Source: Sphingobium fluviale (GTDB lineage: Bacteria; Pseudomonadota; Alphaproteobacteria; Sphingomonadales; Sphingomonadaceae). From it: 64,000 nucleotides of DNA. The notes beneath the pieces were generated by a model. The model had not been told where the DNA came from and ran no database searches. It saw only the letters and a program-made list of their open reading frames with translations. The first letter of the stretch is position 1, and each line of letters opens with the position of its first letter. Below, one piece after another: positions 49,146-56,705 of the stretch. Where the stretch lies: positions 62,001 to 126,000 of the forward strand of contig NZ_SBKP01000003.1 in assembly GCF_004122115.1 (NCBI RefSeq), written 5' to 3'. Both the position numbers and the translations under genes were made by a program.

Positions 49146-51263
49146 ATGATTGTGCCATTGTGGGACGATTGCCGATATGCGGTTAACGATTTGTCAATTC
49201 CGCGGCGGCATAGCGAAGGCTGGGACGTGGAGAAGCCTTTGCGCAGACTGGGCACACAATTGCTGACTCTCCTCGCGCGGGCGAGGGCGAACGAGGCCGA
49301 TATCAGGCGGCCGCTCGTGGAGAGCCTGTATGCCTCGCCGACATCGCTTGGCATCGGCGCGCTCTCTGGTTTCCTCCTCAGCATCGCGATAGCGCACATC
49401 TCGCATGATCCGGTGATGACCGGATGCGCCGTGATTATCTCCTTGATCGCGGTAGCGCGCAGTATTTCGGCCATTTTCTATTACCGCAAGCTCAAGAGCG
49501 GCGTGGCGCGGGCCTACCGGCGCTGGGAGCTGGCCTATGAACTGGGCGCCTGGAGCTATGCGGCTATGCTGGGTGTACTGGCGCTGGTGACTTTGGTGCG
49601 CACCGACGATTCGGCGATCCATATGCTCTCGGTGTCATTGGCGACCGGCTATGGCGCGGGGATCGCCGGGCGCAACGCCGGCCGGGTCAAGATTGCGCTG
49701 GGGCAGACGAGCCTCGCTCTGCTACCCACGGTCGTGGGGCTGTGGTTGAGCGGCGATTTCGGGTATCGTACGCTCGCGATTGTGCTGTTCGTCATGATAT
49801 TCGCTATGCGCGACATTACGCGCACGACGCACCGCATCGTGGTGGAGGCACTGCGCGGCAAGCAGGAAAAATCCTTGCTCGCCGCCAAGTTTGAGCGGCT
49901 GGCGCGCTATGACAGCCTTACCGGCCTTGAAAACCGTATGGCGATGCAGATGCGCCTGCGCGACCTGTTTGCTCAGAATCGCCGCAGCCATGATGCACTC
50001 TCGATCCTGTGGATGGACCTCGACAAGTTCAAAGAGGTGAACGATTCGCTGGGTCATCAGGTGGGCGATGGCCTGTTGCGTGCCGTGGCGGAGCGGCTCA
50101 CCCAGGCATTGGGCGAGCGTGGCCACATAGCGCGCTTTGGCGGCGATGAGTTCGTTATCCTCTGCCCCGGCGCCAATCGTACCGAGGCGCAGGAGCTGGC
50201 CGCCGACATGCTCGATGCACTGCACAAAGGCCTGCGCGTGGGCGAGCATTTCCTCGTCAATACCGCCTCTATCGGCATCGCGGTCGGCCCGCAGGACGGG
50301 CGAGACGCCGAGGAGCTGATGCAGCATGCAGATCTCGCGCTTTATGAGGCCAAGAACAAGGGCCGTAACCGTGTGGTCAGCTTTGCGTGGTCGATGAAGG
50401 AGCGGTTCCACCGCATCCACGAAATCGAGACAGGTCTGCGCCGTGCGGTCGCGAATGACGAACTGGTGCTGAAATTTCAGCCGATCTTCGAGGTGAAAAG
50501 CGGACGGATCGTGATCTGTGAGGCGCTCTTGCGCTGGAACCACCCGACACTGGGCCAGATTTCACCCGTCGAATTCATTCCACTGGCGGAGAGCACAGGG
50601 ACAATCGAGGAAATCACCCACTGGACCATTGATCGTGCTTGTGAGGCAGCGGCCCATTGGCCGGAGGACGTGCGCCTCGCGATCAATATCTCGCTCGCTG
50701 TGCTGAATTCCGGCGCACTGCCAACCGCGGTGATCGAGGCGCTGGTCAAGACTGGCCTTTCCGCGCGCAGGCTGGAGCTGGAGATGACGGAGTCCGTCTT
50801 TCTTGATGACGACAGCCACACCCAGCATATGTTGAAGGCGCTGCAACAGATAGGCTTGCGCATGGTGCTCGATGATTTCGGCACCGGCTATTCGTCGCTG
50901 AGCTATCTGCGGTCCTATCGCTTCGACAGCATCAAGATCGATCGCAGTTTTATGACCGGCATCGCCACCAGCCGCGAGGATCAGGCGATCGTGCGCGCGG
51001 TGACGCTGATGGCAGAGGCGCTGGACATGGAGATTGTGGCCGAGGGGATCGAGACGCACGAGCAGCTCGATTATGCGCGCGATGCAGGCATCCACAATGT
51101 GCAGGGCTTCCTGATGAGCGAACCGCAATCGGTGGCCGTGATGACCGATATGGTGCTGCGCAATGTGACTATCCCGGCCGCCATCGCCGCCAAATCTGCG
51201 CGCAACGGCCGCGTCAGAGCAGCGGTGACGTCCTCCAAAGAACGCCGCCGCGCGAACGGATAA
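49146..51263 (+). CDS. Membrane GGDEF-EAL protein (c-di-GMP synthase/phosphodiesterase)
   Basis: About 705 residues. Six hydrophobic helices between residues 65 and 222 form a membrane sensor region, then a GGDEF domain with intact GGDEF at 332-336 and an EAL domain with intact EALLRW near 459, DDFGTGYSSLSYL and KIDRSF. Both active sites look complete, so the net direction cannot be told. No RxxD product-inhibition site is found five residues before GGDEF. ATG 49146 is used, but a GTG at 49226 after GAAGG is a real alternative. Ends 17 nt from the convergent RpfF-like gene. Confidence 0.9.
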   Translation: MIVPLWDDCRYAVNDLSIPRRHSEGWDVEKPLRRLGTQLLTLLARARANEADIRRPLVESLYASPTSLGIGALSGFLLSIAIAHISHDPVMTGCAVIISLIAVARSISAIFYYRKLKSGVARAYRRWELAYELGAWSYAAMLGVLALVTLVRTDDSAIHMLSVSLATGYGAGIAGRNAGRVKIALGQTSLALLPTVVGLWLSGDFGYRTLAIVLFVMIFAMRDITRTTHRIVVEALRGKQEKSLLAAKFERLARYDSLTGLENRMAMQMRLRDLFAQNRRSHDALSILWMDLDKFKEVNDSLGHQVGDGLLRAVAERLTQALGERGHIARFGGDEFVILCPGANRTEAQELAADMLDALHKGLRVGEHFLVNTASIGIAVGPQDGRDAEELMQHADLALYEAKNKGRNRVVSFAWSMKERFHRIHEIETGLRRAVANDELVLKFQPIFEVKSGRIVICEALLRWNHPTLGQISPVEFIPLAESTGTIEEITHWTIDRACEAAAHWPEDVRLAINISLAVLNSGALPTAVIEALVKTGLSARRLELEMTESVFLDDDSHTQHMLKALQQIGLRMVLDDFGTGYSSLSYLRSYRFDSIKIDRSFMTGIATSREDQAIVRAVTLMAEALDMEIVAEGIETHEQLDYARDAGIHNVQGFLMSEPQSVAVMTDMVLRNVTIPAAIAAKSARNGRVRAAVTSSKERRRANG

Positions 51264-51280
51264 ATATTCGTCTGGGTTCG

Positions 51281-52270
51281 TTAGCGCCGGTGCAGCCGTG
51301 TCTGTGCGTTTGCCAGCCGTCGCATCATCTTGAGGTCACGCTCGGTCAGTTTCATCGCGGTATCGACCCAGCCATCGACAATGTCTCGCAGCTCCGCCAG
51401 TTCCAGCGGCATCACGCGCCGCCCGGCGCGGAAGACCCCAAGCTGCCCGGCATGCCGATCCCGGTTGGTGGCGATATATTCGCGCGCGACCTCCTCGCCT
51501 TTGCCGGGGTCTGCCAACACCGAGATGATCCCCATCTCGTGCATTTCCTCTGCGGTATAGACCTTGCCAGAGAGGATCATACGTTCTGCCACGGCATGGC
51601 CAAGCCTGCGCGCGAGGATAGAATAGGCGCCCATGCCGGGAAACAGGCCAAACAGCACTTCGGGCAGGCCGAAGCGCGCCTGTCGCTCGGCAATGATGAC
51701 ATCGAAGCACATCAGCGCCTCGAACCCGCCGCCTAGTGCATCGCCCTGCGCCAGCCCGATGTTGATCACCGGCATGTCGTTGCAGTGCCATACGCGGTCA
51801 ACGATATCGACGCACAGATGGCTATATTGCCTCAAAGTCTCCCGATCCTGATTTTCAATGCAGCGCGCGAACATCTCCAGATCGCCGCCGAGGTTGAAGA
51901 CGCCGGGAAAGCGCGAACCGAGCACCATATAACGCAGCGCATCCGGCTCGGCGGCGAAGACCTTCTTCGCCTCCATCTGCCATGTCATCGTATCGCGCAG
52001 CAGGCCGAGATTATAGTTAGGCCGGTCAAGCGGGGTGATGAACGCCCAGAGCGTGTTCAGCTCCGGCTCCCATTGCACATCTATCTGGCCGAGGTCGAAC
52101 AGCTTGGACTGGCCGGGGAGGTCAAAGGCGAGAGCCGTCGCCTCCGCTTGATCAACCGGACTAGCCGCGCTGTCAGGCGAGGCTAAAGCCGGTGCAAAAG
52201 CCACCTCAGTCGCTGAAACAGAATCATCGGCAACCGCGATGTCCATAGGGCCTATCCGTATTTCGTCCAT
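51281..52270 (-). CDS. RpfF-like crotonase, candidate DSF (cis-2-unsaturated fatty acid) synthase
   Basis: A 329-residue crotonase with strong resemblance to RpfF of Xanthomonas, which makes the diffusible signal factor from 3-hydroxyacyl-ACP. Shared blocks include VFNLGGDLEMF, AQGDALGGGFEAL, GLPEVLFGLFPGMGAYS and WVDTAMKL near the end. The two catalytic glutamates of RpfF (141 and 161) correspond to Glu184 and Glu204, 20 apart as in RpfF. An Ala-rich extension of about 50 residues precedes the domain. ATG 52270 follows GAGGGGA. No rpfC, rpfG or rpfB lies nearby. A different crotonase activity cannot be excluded. Confidence 0.82.
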   Translation of the reverse strand: MDEIRIGPMDIAVADDSVSATEVAFAPALASPDSAASPVDQAEATALAFDLPGQSKLFDLGQIDVQWEPELNTLWAFITPLDRPNYNLGLLRDTMTWQMEAKKVFAAEPDALRYMVLGSRFPGVFNLGGDLEMFARCIENQDRETLRQYSHLCVDIVDRVWHCNDMPVINIGLAQGDALGGGFEALMCFDVIIAERQARFGLPEVLFGLFPGMGAYSILARRLGHAVAERMILSGKVYTAEEMHEMGIISVLADPGKGEEVAREYIATNRDRHAGQLGVFRAGRRVMPLELAELRDIVDGWVDTAMKLTERDLKMMRRLANAQTRLHRR

Positions 52271-53884: not shown

Positions 53885-54757
53885 TCAAACTATTACCGGT
53901 ATGACCACGCCATAGCGCCCAGTTTCCGCATTGTGATTAAGCGAGGTGCGCAGCTGCCGCGCAAGGCCTTCCAGCACGCGGGCGCACAGCTCCGCGCTGC
54001 GCAGCGACGCAATACTGCTCGCGCGCAGCAACGGGGACTCCAGAATGAGGCAGGCTTTCCCAGGCTGATCGTCCATGAATTTCAGGCTGATATGCAGCAT
54101 CCCCGCCATATCCTGCGAAATGGCGAGGTCTGCCAGTTCCGCCGTCATGAATGCCACCGGCGCCGCGACATCCAGATGAAGGCATATATCGTCGCACTCC
54201 ACATTGATATCGAGCGCGCGCGCGTTCTGGATCTGCGCCGATGTTCTGAGGCTGGCGACGATTTCATTGATGACGGCGCGGGCGCTGACGCCTTTCTGCT
54301 CCTCCAACTCCGCATAATGGTTGCGCTGGACGACCGCGAGCGCATCGACCCGCCGCTGGATCGAAAGATAGGCCGAAGCCGTGCCGGGGTCTTCCGTCGC
54401 GCGCCAATGCAGGCTGATGAGGCTGGAGATGATTTGCAGGTTGTTCTTGACCCTGTGGTGCACCTCGCGCGTCAGCCGGGTCTGATCGGCGAGGGCGCGC
54501 TGCATTTCCTGTTCGTGCCGGGCGACATCGCGGCTGAGGGCGTGAAAGGCTTCGCTCAGTTCCGCGATTTCCTGCGCCGCGCTCATCGTTGTTGCAGGCG
54601 GACTCAGGATTTTTCCGGGCCGGTATGTTGCCACTTCGCGCCGCAGCGCCACCAACGGGCGCACAAGCAGCCTGCGCGCGATATGCCAGCCAATTATCGC
54701 TGCCAATGCCACAGCCGCTATCGAAAACAGGGGCATAAGCACGGTGTTATAGTCCAA
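53885..54757 (-). CDS. HisKA_2 histidine-kinase-like protein with degenerate ATPase domain (PhyP candidate)
   Basis: About 290 residues: one N-terminal membrane helix, a short HAMP-like linker, then a HisKA_2 dimerisation domain with REVHHRVKNNLQIISSLISL (His100/101). The C-terminal ATP-binding region has lost key motifs: the N-box position reads FMTAELADLA without Asn, and no DxGxG glycine box follows. Such a protein should not autophosphorylate but could dephosphorylate PhyR, as reported for PhyP of Sphingomonas. The gene lies 8 nt after nepR. Start TTG 54757 or ATG 54736 is undecided. Confidence 0.8.
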   Translation of the reverse strand: MDYNTVLMPLFSIAAVALAAIIGWHIARRLLVRPLVALRREVATYRPGKILSPPATTMSAAQEIAELSEAFHALSRDVARHEQEMQRALADQTRLTREVHHRVKNNLQIISSLISLHWRATEDPGTASAYLSIQRRVDALAVVQRNHYAELEEQKGVSARAVINEIVASLRTSAQIQNARALDINVECDDICLHLDVAAPVAFMTAELADLAISQDMAGMLHISLKFMDDQPGKACLILESPLLRASSIASLRSAELCARVLEGLARQLRTSLNHNAETGRYGVVIPVIV

Positions 54758-54765
54758 GGTGGCCG

Positions 54766-54984
54766 TCAGCTAAGCCGTTTGAGAAGATCGAGCATTTCAT
54801 CGGGCACACGCTCCTCCACCGTCTGCTGGTAGATGGTGCGCAGCGCATTGCCCAATGTCGCATTTTCGTCAGCAATAGGGGCCAGAGGCGATCCATCAAT
54901 GCGATCCACTGCCGCTTTTCCGGGTTGGCCGGGGGCCGGGTAATTCAGCTGGCTCGCAATCCGATCCGGCTCAGTATTGGTCAT
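54766..54984 (-). CDS. nepR: Anti-sigma factor NepR
   Basis: A 72-residue anti-sigma factor that holds EcfG until phosphorylated PhyR sequesters it. A disordered Pro-rich N-terminus is followed by the core ATLGNALRTIYQQTVEERVPDEMLDLLKRL, the two-helix NepR signature. ATG 54984 has AAAGGGA upstream at proper spacing. An EcfG-type promoter lies about 130 nt upstream. Divergent from phyR, and co-transcribed with the kinase-like gene. Confidence 0.92.
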   Translation of the reverse strand: MTNTEPDRIASQLNYPAPGQPGKAAVDRIDGSPLAPIADENATLGNALRTIYQQTVEERVPDEMLDLLKRLS

Positions 54985-55110
54985 CCGTGCATCCCTTTGC
55001 GCCCCTGGTGACGAAATATGCTTCATTATGCAATCACGGCGGTTATGGTTCATAAGCGATTGAAGCCGCCCCGCCAAGCTTGCTGCCATCAACAAATATG
55101 ATGATCGTCA

Positions 55111-55138
55111 GGAAACTATTTTGCACTTGGTTGGTTCC
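55111..55138 (-). promoter_or_regulatory. EcfG-type promoter for nepR
   Basis: On the minus strand GGAAC (55138-55134) is separated by 17 nt from GTTTCC (55116-55111), matching the alphaproteobacterial EcfG consensus GGAAC-N16/17-GTT. The start site would fall near 55105, giving a leader of about 120 nt. It predicts autoregulation of nepR. Confidence 0.75.
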
Positions 55139-55200
55139 ATCGTTTTGGGGGCTGGAAAAAATTGTCTATGCCTCTGCGGCGAGAAGGGAGTGCATGCATT

Positions 55201-55998
55201 ATGTCATTGGGCCAACAACTATACCCTCATCTTCCGTTTTTGCGCCGTTATGCGCGCGCATTGACGGGAAGCCAGATGCGGGGAGACGCCTATGTGCGTG
55301 CCACGCTGGAGGTGATAGTCGAGGCGCCGGACGAGTTCCCTGCCGATATGGATCCCAGATTGGGACTATATCTTATGTTCAACCGGATCTGGACCTCATC
55401 CGATCTGGAAAGCACTGATTTTGGCGGGGCGAACGAGAACGAGCGGCAGGCGCTGGCACGTGCGCGGCTGGCAAGGATGACGCCGTTGCCCAGGCAGGCC
55501 CTGTTGCTGACGGCTATGGAAGGTTTCAGTGTGGCCGAAGCCGCTCTGTTGATGGGAGTAACCGCTGCAGAGGCGGAGTCGTTCGTTGGAGAGGCAATGA
55601 GCGAAATCGATCGGCAGACCCGCGCAACCGTACTCATTATCGAGGACGAACCGATCATCGCCATGGATATAGAGACGATCGTACGGGATATGGGGCATGA
55701 TGTGAGCGGTATCGCCGTTACGCGCGATGAAGCGGTGCAGATGGCCGTTGCACAACGGCCCGGCCTTGTGCTGGCCGACATTCAGCTTGCAGATGATTCC
55801 AGCGGCATAGATGCGGTGAAGGATATATTGGCCCAGTTTACGGTCCCGGTTATTTTCATCACGGCATTTCCTGAGCGGCTGCTGACGGGTGAACGCCCGG
55901 AACCCACATTTCTTATCACCAAGCCATTTCAGCGGCAGACCGTAAAGGCGGCTATCGCGCAGGCGCTGTTTTTTGACGAAGCGACCAGCCCCGCGTGA
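55201..55998 (+). CDS. phyR: General stress response regulator PhyR
   Basis: Partner-switch regulator, 265 residues. The N-terminal half (about 1-138) is a sigma-factor-like decoy with region 4-like PLPRQALLLTAMEGFSVAEAALLMGVT; the C-terminal half is a receiver domain (ATVLIIEDEP...) with phospho-acceptor Asp193 in VLADIQL and Lys241 in LITKPF. Phosphorylation frees the decoy to bind NepR and release EcfG. ATG 55201 follows AAGGGAG; upstream in-frame ATGs are spacer. Divergent from nepR, upstream of ecfG. Confidence 0.95.
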   Translation: MSLGQQLYPHLPFLRRYARALTGSQMRGDAYVRATLEVIVEAPDEFPADMDPRLGLYLMFNRIWTSSDLESTDFGGANENERQALARARLARMTPLPRQALLLTAMEGFSVAEAALLMGVTAAEAESFVGEAMSEIDRQTRATVLIIEDEPIIAMDIETIVRDMGHDVSGIAVTRDEAVQMAVAQRPGLVLADIQLADDSSGIDAVKDILAQFTVPVIFITAFPERLLTGERPEPTFLITKPFQRQTVKAAIAQALFFDEATSPA

Positions 55999-56003
55999 AC
56001 AGT

Positions 56004-56034
56004 GCCGGACGAAGGCATGGTGTTACCGTCCGGC
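56004..56034 (+). other. Hairpin between phyR and ecfG
   Basis: GCCGGACG at 56004-56011 and CGTCCGGC at 56027-56034 form a perfect 8-bp stem. No T run follows, so it may act as a processing site or weak attenuator between phyR and ecfG. Confidence 0.5.
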
Positions 56035-56090
56035 GGCTCCCCATATTATAACCATGCAGGCGGGGCAGTGCAGCGTTGCAAAGGATTGCC

Positions 56091-56705
56091 ATGAGTGACG
56101 GTACGAGTCAGTGCGAACAGCCTGAGCAGGCGCTGAACGACGATGCGTTCAAGCGGGAGCTGGCTGGGGTTATCCCGCATCTCCGCGCTTTCGGCAGATC
56201 ACTCTCCGGCTCGCGCGATCTGGCAGACGATCTTGTGCAGGAAACACTGATGAAGGCATGGGCTGCGCGCAGCCGCTTTCAGGCCGGCACCAATATGCGT
56301 GCCTGGACCTTCATCATATTGCGCAACCACTTCCTCTCGCAAAAGCGCCGCGCGCGCTTTACCGGCGAGTGGGACGATCTTGCTGCGGACCGGCTGCTTG
56401 CGGCTCCTGCCGGGCAGGACAAGCAGCTTGAGCTGGCGGATATGCAGCGCGCCTTGCTGCAATTGCCCGAAAGCCAGCGTGAAGCCTTGATTCTCGTTGG
56501 CGCAGGTGGATTCGCCTATGAGGAAGCAGCCGAAATCTGCGGCGTGGCGGTGGGTACGATCAAGAGCAGAGTGGCGAGGGCGCGCTCGGCAATAGAAAAT
56601 ATTCTGGAGACTGGCGCCCTGCCGCCCCGTGCCGATGGCGTACGCGATGGGGCTGGGCCGCTGGCGGAGATCATGGCGGATGTCGAAAGACTGAGCGGCG
56701 GGTAA
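56091..56705 (+). CDS. ecfG: ECF sigma factor EcfG, general stress response
   Basis: ECF15-type sigma factor of 204 residues that directs RNA polymerase to GGAAC-N16/17-GTT promoters. Region 2 is visible (HLRAFGRSLSGSRDLADDLVQETLMKAW; MRAWTFIILRNHFLSQKRR) and region 4 (LPESQREALILVGAGGFAYEEAAEICGVAVGTIKSRVARAR). ATG 56091 has AAGGA 6 nt upstream. It lies downstream of phyR and close to two nepR genes, the classic locus with one added anti-sigma gene. Confidence 0.94.
   Translation: MSDGTSQCEQPEQALNDDAFKRELAGVIPHLRAFGRSLSGSRDLADDLVQETLMKAWAARSRFQAGTNMRAWTFIILRNHFLSQKRRARFTGEWDDLAADRLLAAPAGQDKQLELADMQRALLQLPESQREALILVGAGGFAYEEAAEICGVAVGTIKSRVARARSAIENILETGALPPRADGVRDGAGPLAEIMADVERLSGG

Follow-up and report, generated by a model that had tools for sequence, protein, structure and literature searches.

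Introduction

Research on cell-to-cell signaling by fatty acids of the diffusible signal factor (DSF) family has centered on xanthomonads, Burkholderia and certain enterobacteria, according to PMC4504480, in which two core routes of perception are described, RpfC/G and RpfR, together with the kinases RpfS, BCAM0227 and PA1396. The signal is made by RpfF, which is described as dehydrating 3-hydroxydodecanoyl-ACP (acyl carrier protein) and then hydrolyzing the thioester to yield the free cis-2 acid (PMC6361424). The rpfF gene of Burkholderia converges with rpfR, coding for a PAS-GGDEF-EAL receptor whose PAS domain is reported to bind the acid and thereby to activate the breakdown of cyclic di-GMP, hereafter abbreviated as c-di-GMP (PMC4504480; PMC6361424); the FI domain of the same receptor reportedly restrains RpfF (PMC6361424). 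DsfR (PMC12838280) and FadD1 (PMC12754631) have been reported as additional receptors for the DSF family, and candidates for rpfF, rpfC, rpfG and rpfR have been presented for Leptospirillum (PMC8357829). Here we analyze a locus of the α-proteobacterium Sphingobium fluviale (Sphingomonadaceae) in which the gene of an RpfF-type crotonase converges with that of a membrane GGDEF-EAL protein. The locus lies in a stretch of 64,000 nucleotides (contig NZ_SBKP01000003.1, positions 62,001 to 126,000 of the forward strand; RefSeq assembly GCF_004122115.1), hereafter called the window, the numbering of which is followed for all coordinates given without a locus name.

The plan of this locus is the same as that of Burkholderia, with a membrane domain replacing the FI-PAS region. 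It shares with the RpfF/RpfR systems of Burkholderia and Cronobacter the crotonase fold of the synthase and the convergent GGDEF-EAL gene (present also at four RpfR-type loci of our survey, L262-L265), whereas its GGDEF-EAL partner differs from RpfR in being membrane-bound, in having an undescribed N-terminal domain and in containing neither FI nor PAS. With the RpfF/RpfC/RpfG system of xanthomonads it has in common the family of the synthase, a membrane partner and, probably, c-di-GMP as output, but the partner lacks the histidine kinase, REC and HPt domains of RpfC. We consider it reasonably likely that the two genes constitute a DSF-family signaling system in which a membrane enzyme of c-di-GMP metabolism takes the place of RpfC as signal receptor. 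Among the titles and abstract beginnings of open-licence papers in PubMed Central, we found no DSF system with a membrane GGDEF-EAL partner of RpfF; in the same source, the combination of RpfF with Sphingobium gave no match and that of RpfF with Novosphingobium gave a single paper, on a hydrogenase.

The Crotonase of the Window Is of the RpfF Type

The synthase gene (51281..52270, minus strand) runs from an ATG at 52270 to the last base of its stop codon at 51281 and encodes a protein of 329 amino acids. The initial annotation, made from the letters of the window alone, had considered this protein an RpfF-like candidate on the basis of three sequence blocks, GVFNLGGDL, GDALGGGFEA and GLPEVLFGLFPGMGAYS, and of the distance of 20 residues separating two catalytic glutamates. 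All three blocks are present in the protein, and the two glutamates, E184 (codon 51721-51719, minus strand) and E204 (codon 51661-51659, minus strand), do not vary among 41 aligned sequences, the catalytic role of the pair being derived from the RpfF literature (PMC4504480). Their spacing, however, is no hallmark of RpfF, because an ordinary hydratase, the 2,3-dehydroadipyl-CoA hydratase of entry 4fzw, has exactly the same spacing in a gap-free alignment; the glutamate pair is thus necessary only, and not diagnostic.

The NCBIfam model best matching the synthase is NF006452 (PRK08788), with 351.1 bits versus a cut-off of 177 and a nearly full-length match, the name of the model stating no specific function. 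For the RpfF equivalog NF053515 the score is 185.7 bits versus the 550 required, a cut-off passed in no more than 3 out of 398 genomes from the phylum. The four RpfFs checked at loci L262-L265, each beside an RpfR-type gene with FI, GGDEF and EAL domains, score 179.6-187.7 bits with the same model, so that the protein of the window lies outside this equivalog but not, for that reason, outside DSF synthases. The NF053515 cut-off was consequently set aside as a general test of DSF synthases. Among solved structures, the four best sequence matches (7zq7, 6dgn, 5fus and 3m6m, with E values from 5.2e-46 to 1.7e-40) all bear entry titles identifying them as DSF synthases, and the fifth is the ordinary hydratase 4fzw (E value 2.6e-15).

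Phylogenetic trees give the same picture. In a tree of 68 rows (from which row L095 was left out), 61 RpfF-type sequences were split from 7 ordinary hydratases with 100/100 support, and an identical support separated 61 RpfF-type sequences from 4 ordinary hydratases in a tree of 65 rows; the rows of both trees were chosen by hand, and the tree program flagged long branches. The AlphaFold model of the synthase has a mean predicted local distance difference test score (pLDDT) of 86.3, with residues 1-46 below 50, and its crotonase fold extends approximately over residues 56-326 (51293..52105, minus strand). When this model was searched with Foldseek, the first twelve matches were RpfF chains having template modeling scores, normalized by target, of 0.91-0.93, as compared with 0.83-0.85 for the best chains of ordinary hydratases. 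In VIA-align the five top entries were all RpfF or DfsA proteins with root mean square deviations of 1.4-1.7, namely 5fus (Z 38.4, deviation 1.4), 6dgn (Z 37.9), 3m6n and 3m6m (both Z 37.3) and 7zq7 (Z 36.2), followed by an ordinary hydratase with Z 29.3 and deviation 2.4. Residues 55-325 of the model superpose on 5fus in this alignment, the C-terminal helices of the RpfF fold included.

By tree, fold and motifs, therefore, the product of the gene is an RpfF-type crotonase, and the RpfF likeness originally proposed is borne out by its grouping with RpfF apart from ordinary enoyl-CoA hydratases as well as by its structural comparison with other crotonases. The sphingomonad character attributed to the genome also agrees with our data, the nearest named loci being those of Sphingobium (among the best 80 loci of at least 567 confirmed relatives). 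Judging from sequence, the gene probably makes a fatty-acid signal of the DSF family for communication between cells: the enzyme would dehydrate 3-hydroxyacyl-ACP to cis-2-enoyl-ACP in the manner of RpfF and would then set free the cis-2-unsaturated fatty acid. The synthase could instead be an ordinary enoyl-CoA hydratase of β-oxidation that inherited its neighborhood by chance, as might be thought from the names given to NF006452 and to plasmid records of the gene, which mention merely a crotonase/enoyl-CoA hydratase family protein. Such an identity is rejected by the trees and the fold, and the pairing described below persists across changes of distance, orientation and replicon; this explanation is largely refuted so far as sequence allows, and we give it hardly any weight.

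The N-terminal tail of the synthase shows a motif resembling MIDSGRFN at 28 of 30 loci of the genus (L003-L030, read by eye), which is found neither in the protein of the window nor in that of its nearest relative, L002; this tail is a possible docking motif.

The Converging Gene Encodes a Membrane GGDEF-EAL Protein

Only 17 bases (51264..51280, assigned to no strand) separate the stop codon of the synthase from that of a converging gene on the plus strand (49227..51263), which encodes a membrane GGDEF-EAL protein, the candidate for both receptor and c-di-GMP output. Its reading frame is open from 49002, and its start has been placed at the GTG at 49227, the point where the alignment with relatives begins. 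Along the plus strand, the protein consists of an N-terminal membrane domain (49224..49880), a GGDEF domain with an intact GGDEF motif (49902..50372) and an EAL domain with conserved signature residues (50436..51125). The signature residues of both enzymatic domains are conserved across an alignment of 78 sequences.

The N-terminal domain has no listed Pfam match even at an E value of 10. Its predicted model (pLDDT 92.2) is a bundle of long helices, about six of which are hydrophobic, and a hydropathy scan displays five hydrophobic peaks. A Foldseek comparison of this domain with the PDB returned nothing at E ≤ 0.001, which is not proof of a new fold. Homology with the input domain of RpfC was considered and rejected, given an hhalign probability of 1.5%.

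The initial annotation had stated that no rpfC, rpfG or rpfB gene lies nearby and that the receptor for a fatty-acid signal would be unknown. The first statement stands for the RpfC and RpfG types (RpfB was not searched), yet it passed over the GGDEF-EAL gene converging at 17 bases, which by co-occurrence and adjacency is a strong candidate for the receptor. Elsewhere in the genome of S. fluviale, receptors of the RpfR, RpfC and RpfG types do not appear: there is no HD-GYP match to PF13487 (the sole HD model tried), no match to an alignment of RpfC-type input domains and, in the search with the FI-PAS region of RpfR, only matches at chance level (best E value 0.17). Eight GGDEF domains are present in this genome, one of which carries the N-terminal domain of the partner.

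Within the genus, 33 of 36 genomes contain the synthase with at least 59% identity, and the domain of the partner likewise occurs in 33 of the 36. The GGDEF-EAL gene converges with the synthase at 29 of 30 loci, that of the window included, and the remaining locus stops at a contig end. The exceptions among genomes are G028 and G033, which have neither gene, G021, which has only the partner, directly followed by a tgt-like gene, and G026, which has only the synthase (60% complete, with a contig end). A later draw of genomes added to the genus one member with both genes (G892) and one with neither (G842).

Co-occurrence of Synthase and Partner in the Family

A scan of 199 genomes of the family, with cut-offs of E ≤ 1e-35 for the synthase and E ≤ 1e-8 for the domain of the partner, identified the synthase in 74 and the partner domain in 82; both were found in 67 genomes, the synthase alone in 7, the GGDEF-EAL protein alone in 15 and neither in 110. 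The genes are adjacent in only 18 of the 67 genomes having both; in 29 they lie at least 69 kb apart and in 20 they are located on different contigs. To guard against the effects of shared descent, we used an rpoB tree of 120 of these genomes. Among 20 independent pairs differing in the synthase, the partner differed in the same way in 10.6, in the opposite way in 0.0 and not at all in 9.4 (median p 0.00098, with a range of 0.00024-0.0039). With the partner as the starting trait there were 15 pairs, of which 10.3 differed in the same way, 0.1 in the opposite way and 4.6 not at all (median p 0.002).

The seven genomes with synthase only (G695, G756, G785, G789, G826, G850 and G833) can be considered in the light of RpfC. 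In the first four, the synthase adjoins a gene for a protein of 820-853 residues combining HisKA, HATPase, REC and HPt domains, namely the architecture of RpfC. The five-helix input domain of RpfC type is found in 7 of the 199 genomes. Six of them are these same four plus G826 and G850, in which at most 2.5 kb separate match and synthase; the seventh, G541, yields no synthase at the threshold applied. Genome G833, which is 77% complete, has a synthase but neither the GGDEF-EAL protein nor one of RpfC type. Thus, of the 74 genomes with synthase, 67 have the GGDEF-EAL protein, 6 have an RpfC-type kinase, 1 incomplete genome has neither and none has both, a partner replacement that amounts to a natural experiment on a signal changing its receptor.

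At three loci with unlinked genes (L267, L268 and L270), a gene for an asparagine-synthase-type amidotransferase adjoins the synthase, and L268 also has an exosortase gene nearby, hinting at exopolysaccharide genes as targets.

A Single Replacement of the Kinase Partner as the Simplest History

In the tree of 65 rows, the synthases of partner type form one clade of 29 rows with 100/100 support, which comprises 26 with the GGDEF-EAL partner (located elsewhere in the genome for L108, L119 and L268) and 3 in which the partner is not seen or is cut. This clade is nested within a larger α-proteobacterial one (99/99); the remaining rows of the latter have RpfC-type or kinase/receiver neighbors, except for one in which no partner is seen. 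Four synthases associated with RpfR constitute a separate clade (100/100), setting the synthase of the window apart from those of RpfF/RpfR systems. Among its closest known counterparts are the kinase-partnered α-proteobacterial RpfFs, found in the same family (L272-L275) and in the same order (L277 and L278), which belong to the same 99/99 clade and also have an adjoining partner, but of the kinase type. Because the synthases of partner type are one clade among kinase-partnered ones, a single replacement of the kinase by the GGDEF-EAL protein, with subsequent rearrangement, would be the simplest history; a membrane GGDEF-EAL protein would then have replaced the RpfC-type kinase in this α-proteobacterial clade.

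Genes for kinases or receivers adjoin the RpfF-type gene at 28 of 30 loci elsewhere in the phylum and at 13 of 22 other loci of the class; the nine class loci without them include three that are not of RpfF type and some that are cut by contig ends. The pairings suggest that NF006452 holds DSF synthases. They also bear upon another explanation, namely that the enzyme acts as an acyl-ACP thioesterase/dehydratase in the balance of membrane lipids, the GGDEF-EAL protein reading the state of the membrane and no signal being exported. The membrane type of the N-terminal domain of the partner would fit this possibility, but the solved near relatives of the enzyme are synthases of DSF or BDSF (Burkholderia DSF), the neighbors just mentioned across the phylum are kinases and receivers, and the patchy distribution of the gene, which is above cut-off in 19 of 289 α-proteobacteria, is ill-suited to a housekeeping role. 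We regard the lipid-balance explanation as improbable.

The synthases of L277 (3860-5926) and L278 (3092-4984), which come from two other families of the order, are fusions of an RpfF-type domain with Haem_oxygenas_2, an iron-containing redox enzyme; the synthase is here joined to a second enzyme, and the fusion genes adjoin two histidine kinase genes.

Distribution, Orientation and Plasmid Copies of the Pair

At 77 of the 80 best named loci, a gene within 5 kb of the synthase encodes this N-terminal domain together with GGDEF and EAL, and all 77 partners also pass a threshold of E ≤ 1e-20. In the remaining three, the GGDEF-EAL gene is interrupted by a contig end (L335) or no partner is seen at the locus (L366, and L339, which has a contig end nearby). 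The orientation is convergent in 65 of the 77 pairs, three of these being assigned from coordinates, and divergent in 12, which come from Pseudolabrys, other Hyphomicrobiales and Rhizobiales and two genomes labeled only as Proteobacteria; Hyphomicrobiales have both arrangements. A PAS_7 domain is inserted between the membrane domain and GGDEF in 5 of 6 scanned partners, the Sphingomonas protein and that of the window being without it.

Other open reading frames around the best 80 loci (1427 of at least 150 amino acids, those sharing more than 100 bases with the pair being excluded) revealed none that is related across at least three of the five groups, and seven related across two. Conserved synteny as the cause of the pairing was set against this absence of other shared reading frames and the changing orientation, and was rejected. 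Plasmids carry the pair too: it occurs on pMRAD01 of Methylobacterium radiotolerans JCM 2831 and on plasmids from M. oryzae and Sphingomonas parapaucimobilis, with E values of 1.4e-53 or better for the domain, and its genes are annotated there merely as crotonase/enoyl-CoA hydratase family and EAL protein. Plasmid relatives from Bosea and Methylorubrum, of about 40% identity, do not have the partner beside them.

Variants of the arrangement were seen as well. On the megaplasmid of Methylorubrum extorquens AM1, a 40% identical synthase converges with a different GGDEF-EAL protein (L379:5813-7768), which has a PAS domain but neither the membrane domain described here nor an FI match. In Parasphingopyxis and relatives (L331, L333, L334, L338, L343 and L360), a second GGDEF-EAL gene lies in tandem after that of the partner, with the organization PAS_4, GGDEF and EAL in L334. 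A plasmid of Escherichia coli from a healthy person (L380:3815-4648) carries, near ABC transporter genes, a crotonase with 36% identity across 65% of the query, and no receptor-type gene was found in that stretch.

The GGDEF-EAL Protein as Candidate Signal Receptor

In the signaling system favored here, the product of the converging gene would be the membrane receptor of the signal, its multi-helix N-terminal domain sensing either the fatty acid itself or the condition of the synthase. Sensing would alter the output of the GGDEF and EAL domains, so that cell density would be translated into a c-di-GMP level without the intervention of a kinase or RpfG. We infer that the membrane domain binds the acid, as we do the direction in which c-di-GMP would change, and the partner may read the signal by a way so far undescribed.

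Several observations weigh against this assignment. Since the membrane domain shows no homology to the input domain of RpfC, its sequence gives no pointer to a fatty acid. The partner occurs within 1.5 kb of the synthase at 0 of the 22 other NF006452 loci of the class. The GGDEF-EAL protein is found without synthase in the 15 family genomes counted above and in G021 of the genus, and hence must have some role without the synthase or listen to signals made by others. The rows of the rpoB tree did not form a random sample: they comprised 65 of the 89 genomes with either gene, namely all those whose rpoB position was listed, and 55 of the 110 with neither, picked by hand so that members of the same genera would be represented. 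When rows with adjacent genes were removed (leaving 107), 15 pairs differing in the synthase gave 6.5 changes in the same way, 0.5 in the opposite way and 8.0 without difference (median p 0.039, range 0.0078-0.219), and 11 pairs starting from the partner gave 6.2, 0.6 and 4.2, respectively (median p 0.070); the link thus holds among unlinked genes, but more weakly. Finally, co-occurrence was assessed for this one family of GGDEF-EAL proteins only.

Co-occurrence is moreover compatible with any tight functional link, and the crotonase could be a DSF synthase while the GGDEF-EAL protein either binds and restrains it or adjusts c-di-GMP in control of the same traits; the receptor would then be another protein, for instance a transcription factor or some FadD-type ligase. 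Precedents are available in the restraint of RpfF by the FI domain of RpfR (PMC6361424) and in the reported receptors DsfR (PMC12838280) and FadD1 (PMC12754631). Within the family, however, the partner occupies precisely the places left vacant by RpfC-type kinases, and its conserved membrane domain occupies the position of an input domain; we therefore hold a separate receptor to be unlikely, if less so than the lipid-balance explanation.

The receptor assignment can be extended to a third core type of DSF perception, beside RpfC/RpfG and RpfR, in which the membrane domain would bind the cis-2-enoic acid directly and drive GGDEF-EAL within one protein. Having arisen once, as far as our tree shows, by replacing an RpfC-type partner, it would serve Sphingobium, Sphingomonas, Parasphingopyxis, Pseudolabrys, Methylobacterium and their relatives, plasmids included, and the 15 of 199 family genomes with receptor only would be listeners. 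This extended proposal, which is conditional on direct sensing for the status of a third core receptor type, is tentative and its chances are in our judgment slightly below even. A system of this kind, found across Sphingomonadales and Hyphomicrobiales and combining receptor and c-di-GMP output in one membrane protein, would widen the range of the DSF language, would offer a new membrane sensor domain and would allow genes annotated only as crotonase and EAL protein to be named.

Neighboring Genes in the Window

Beside tgt, the window contains an apparent cluster of the general stress response (53885-56705), composed of genes for a HisKA_2 kinase, NepR, PhyR and an ECF-type sigma factor.
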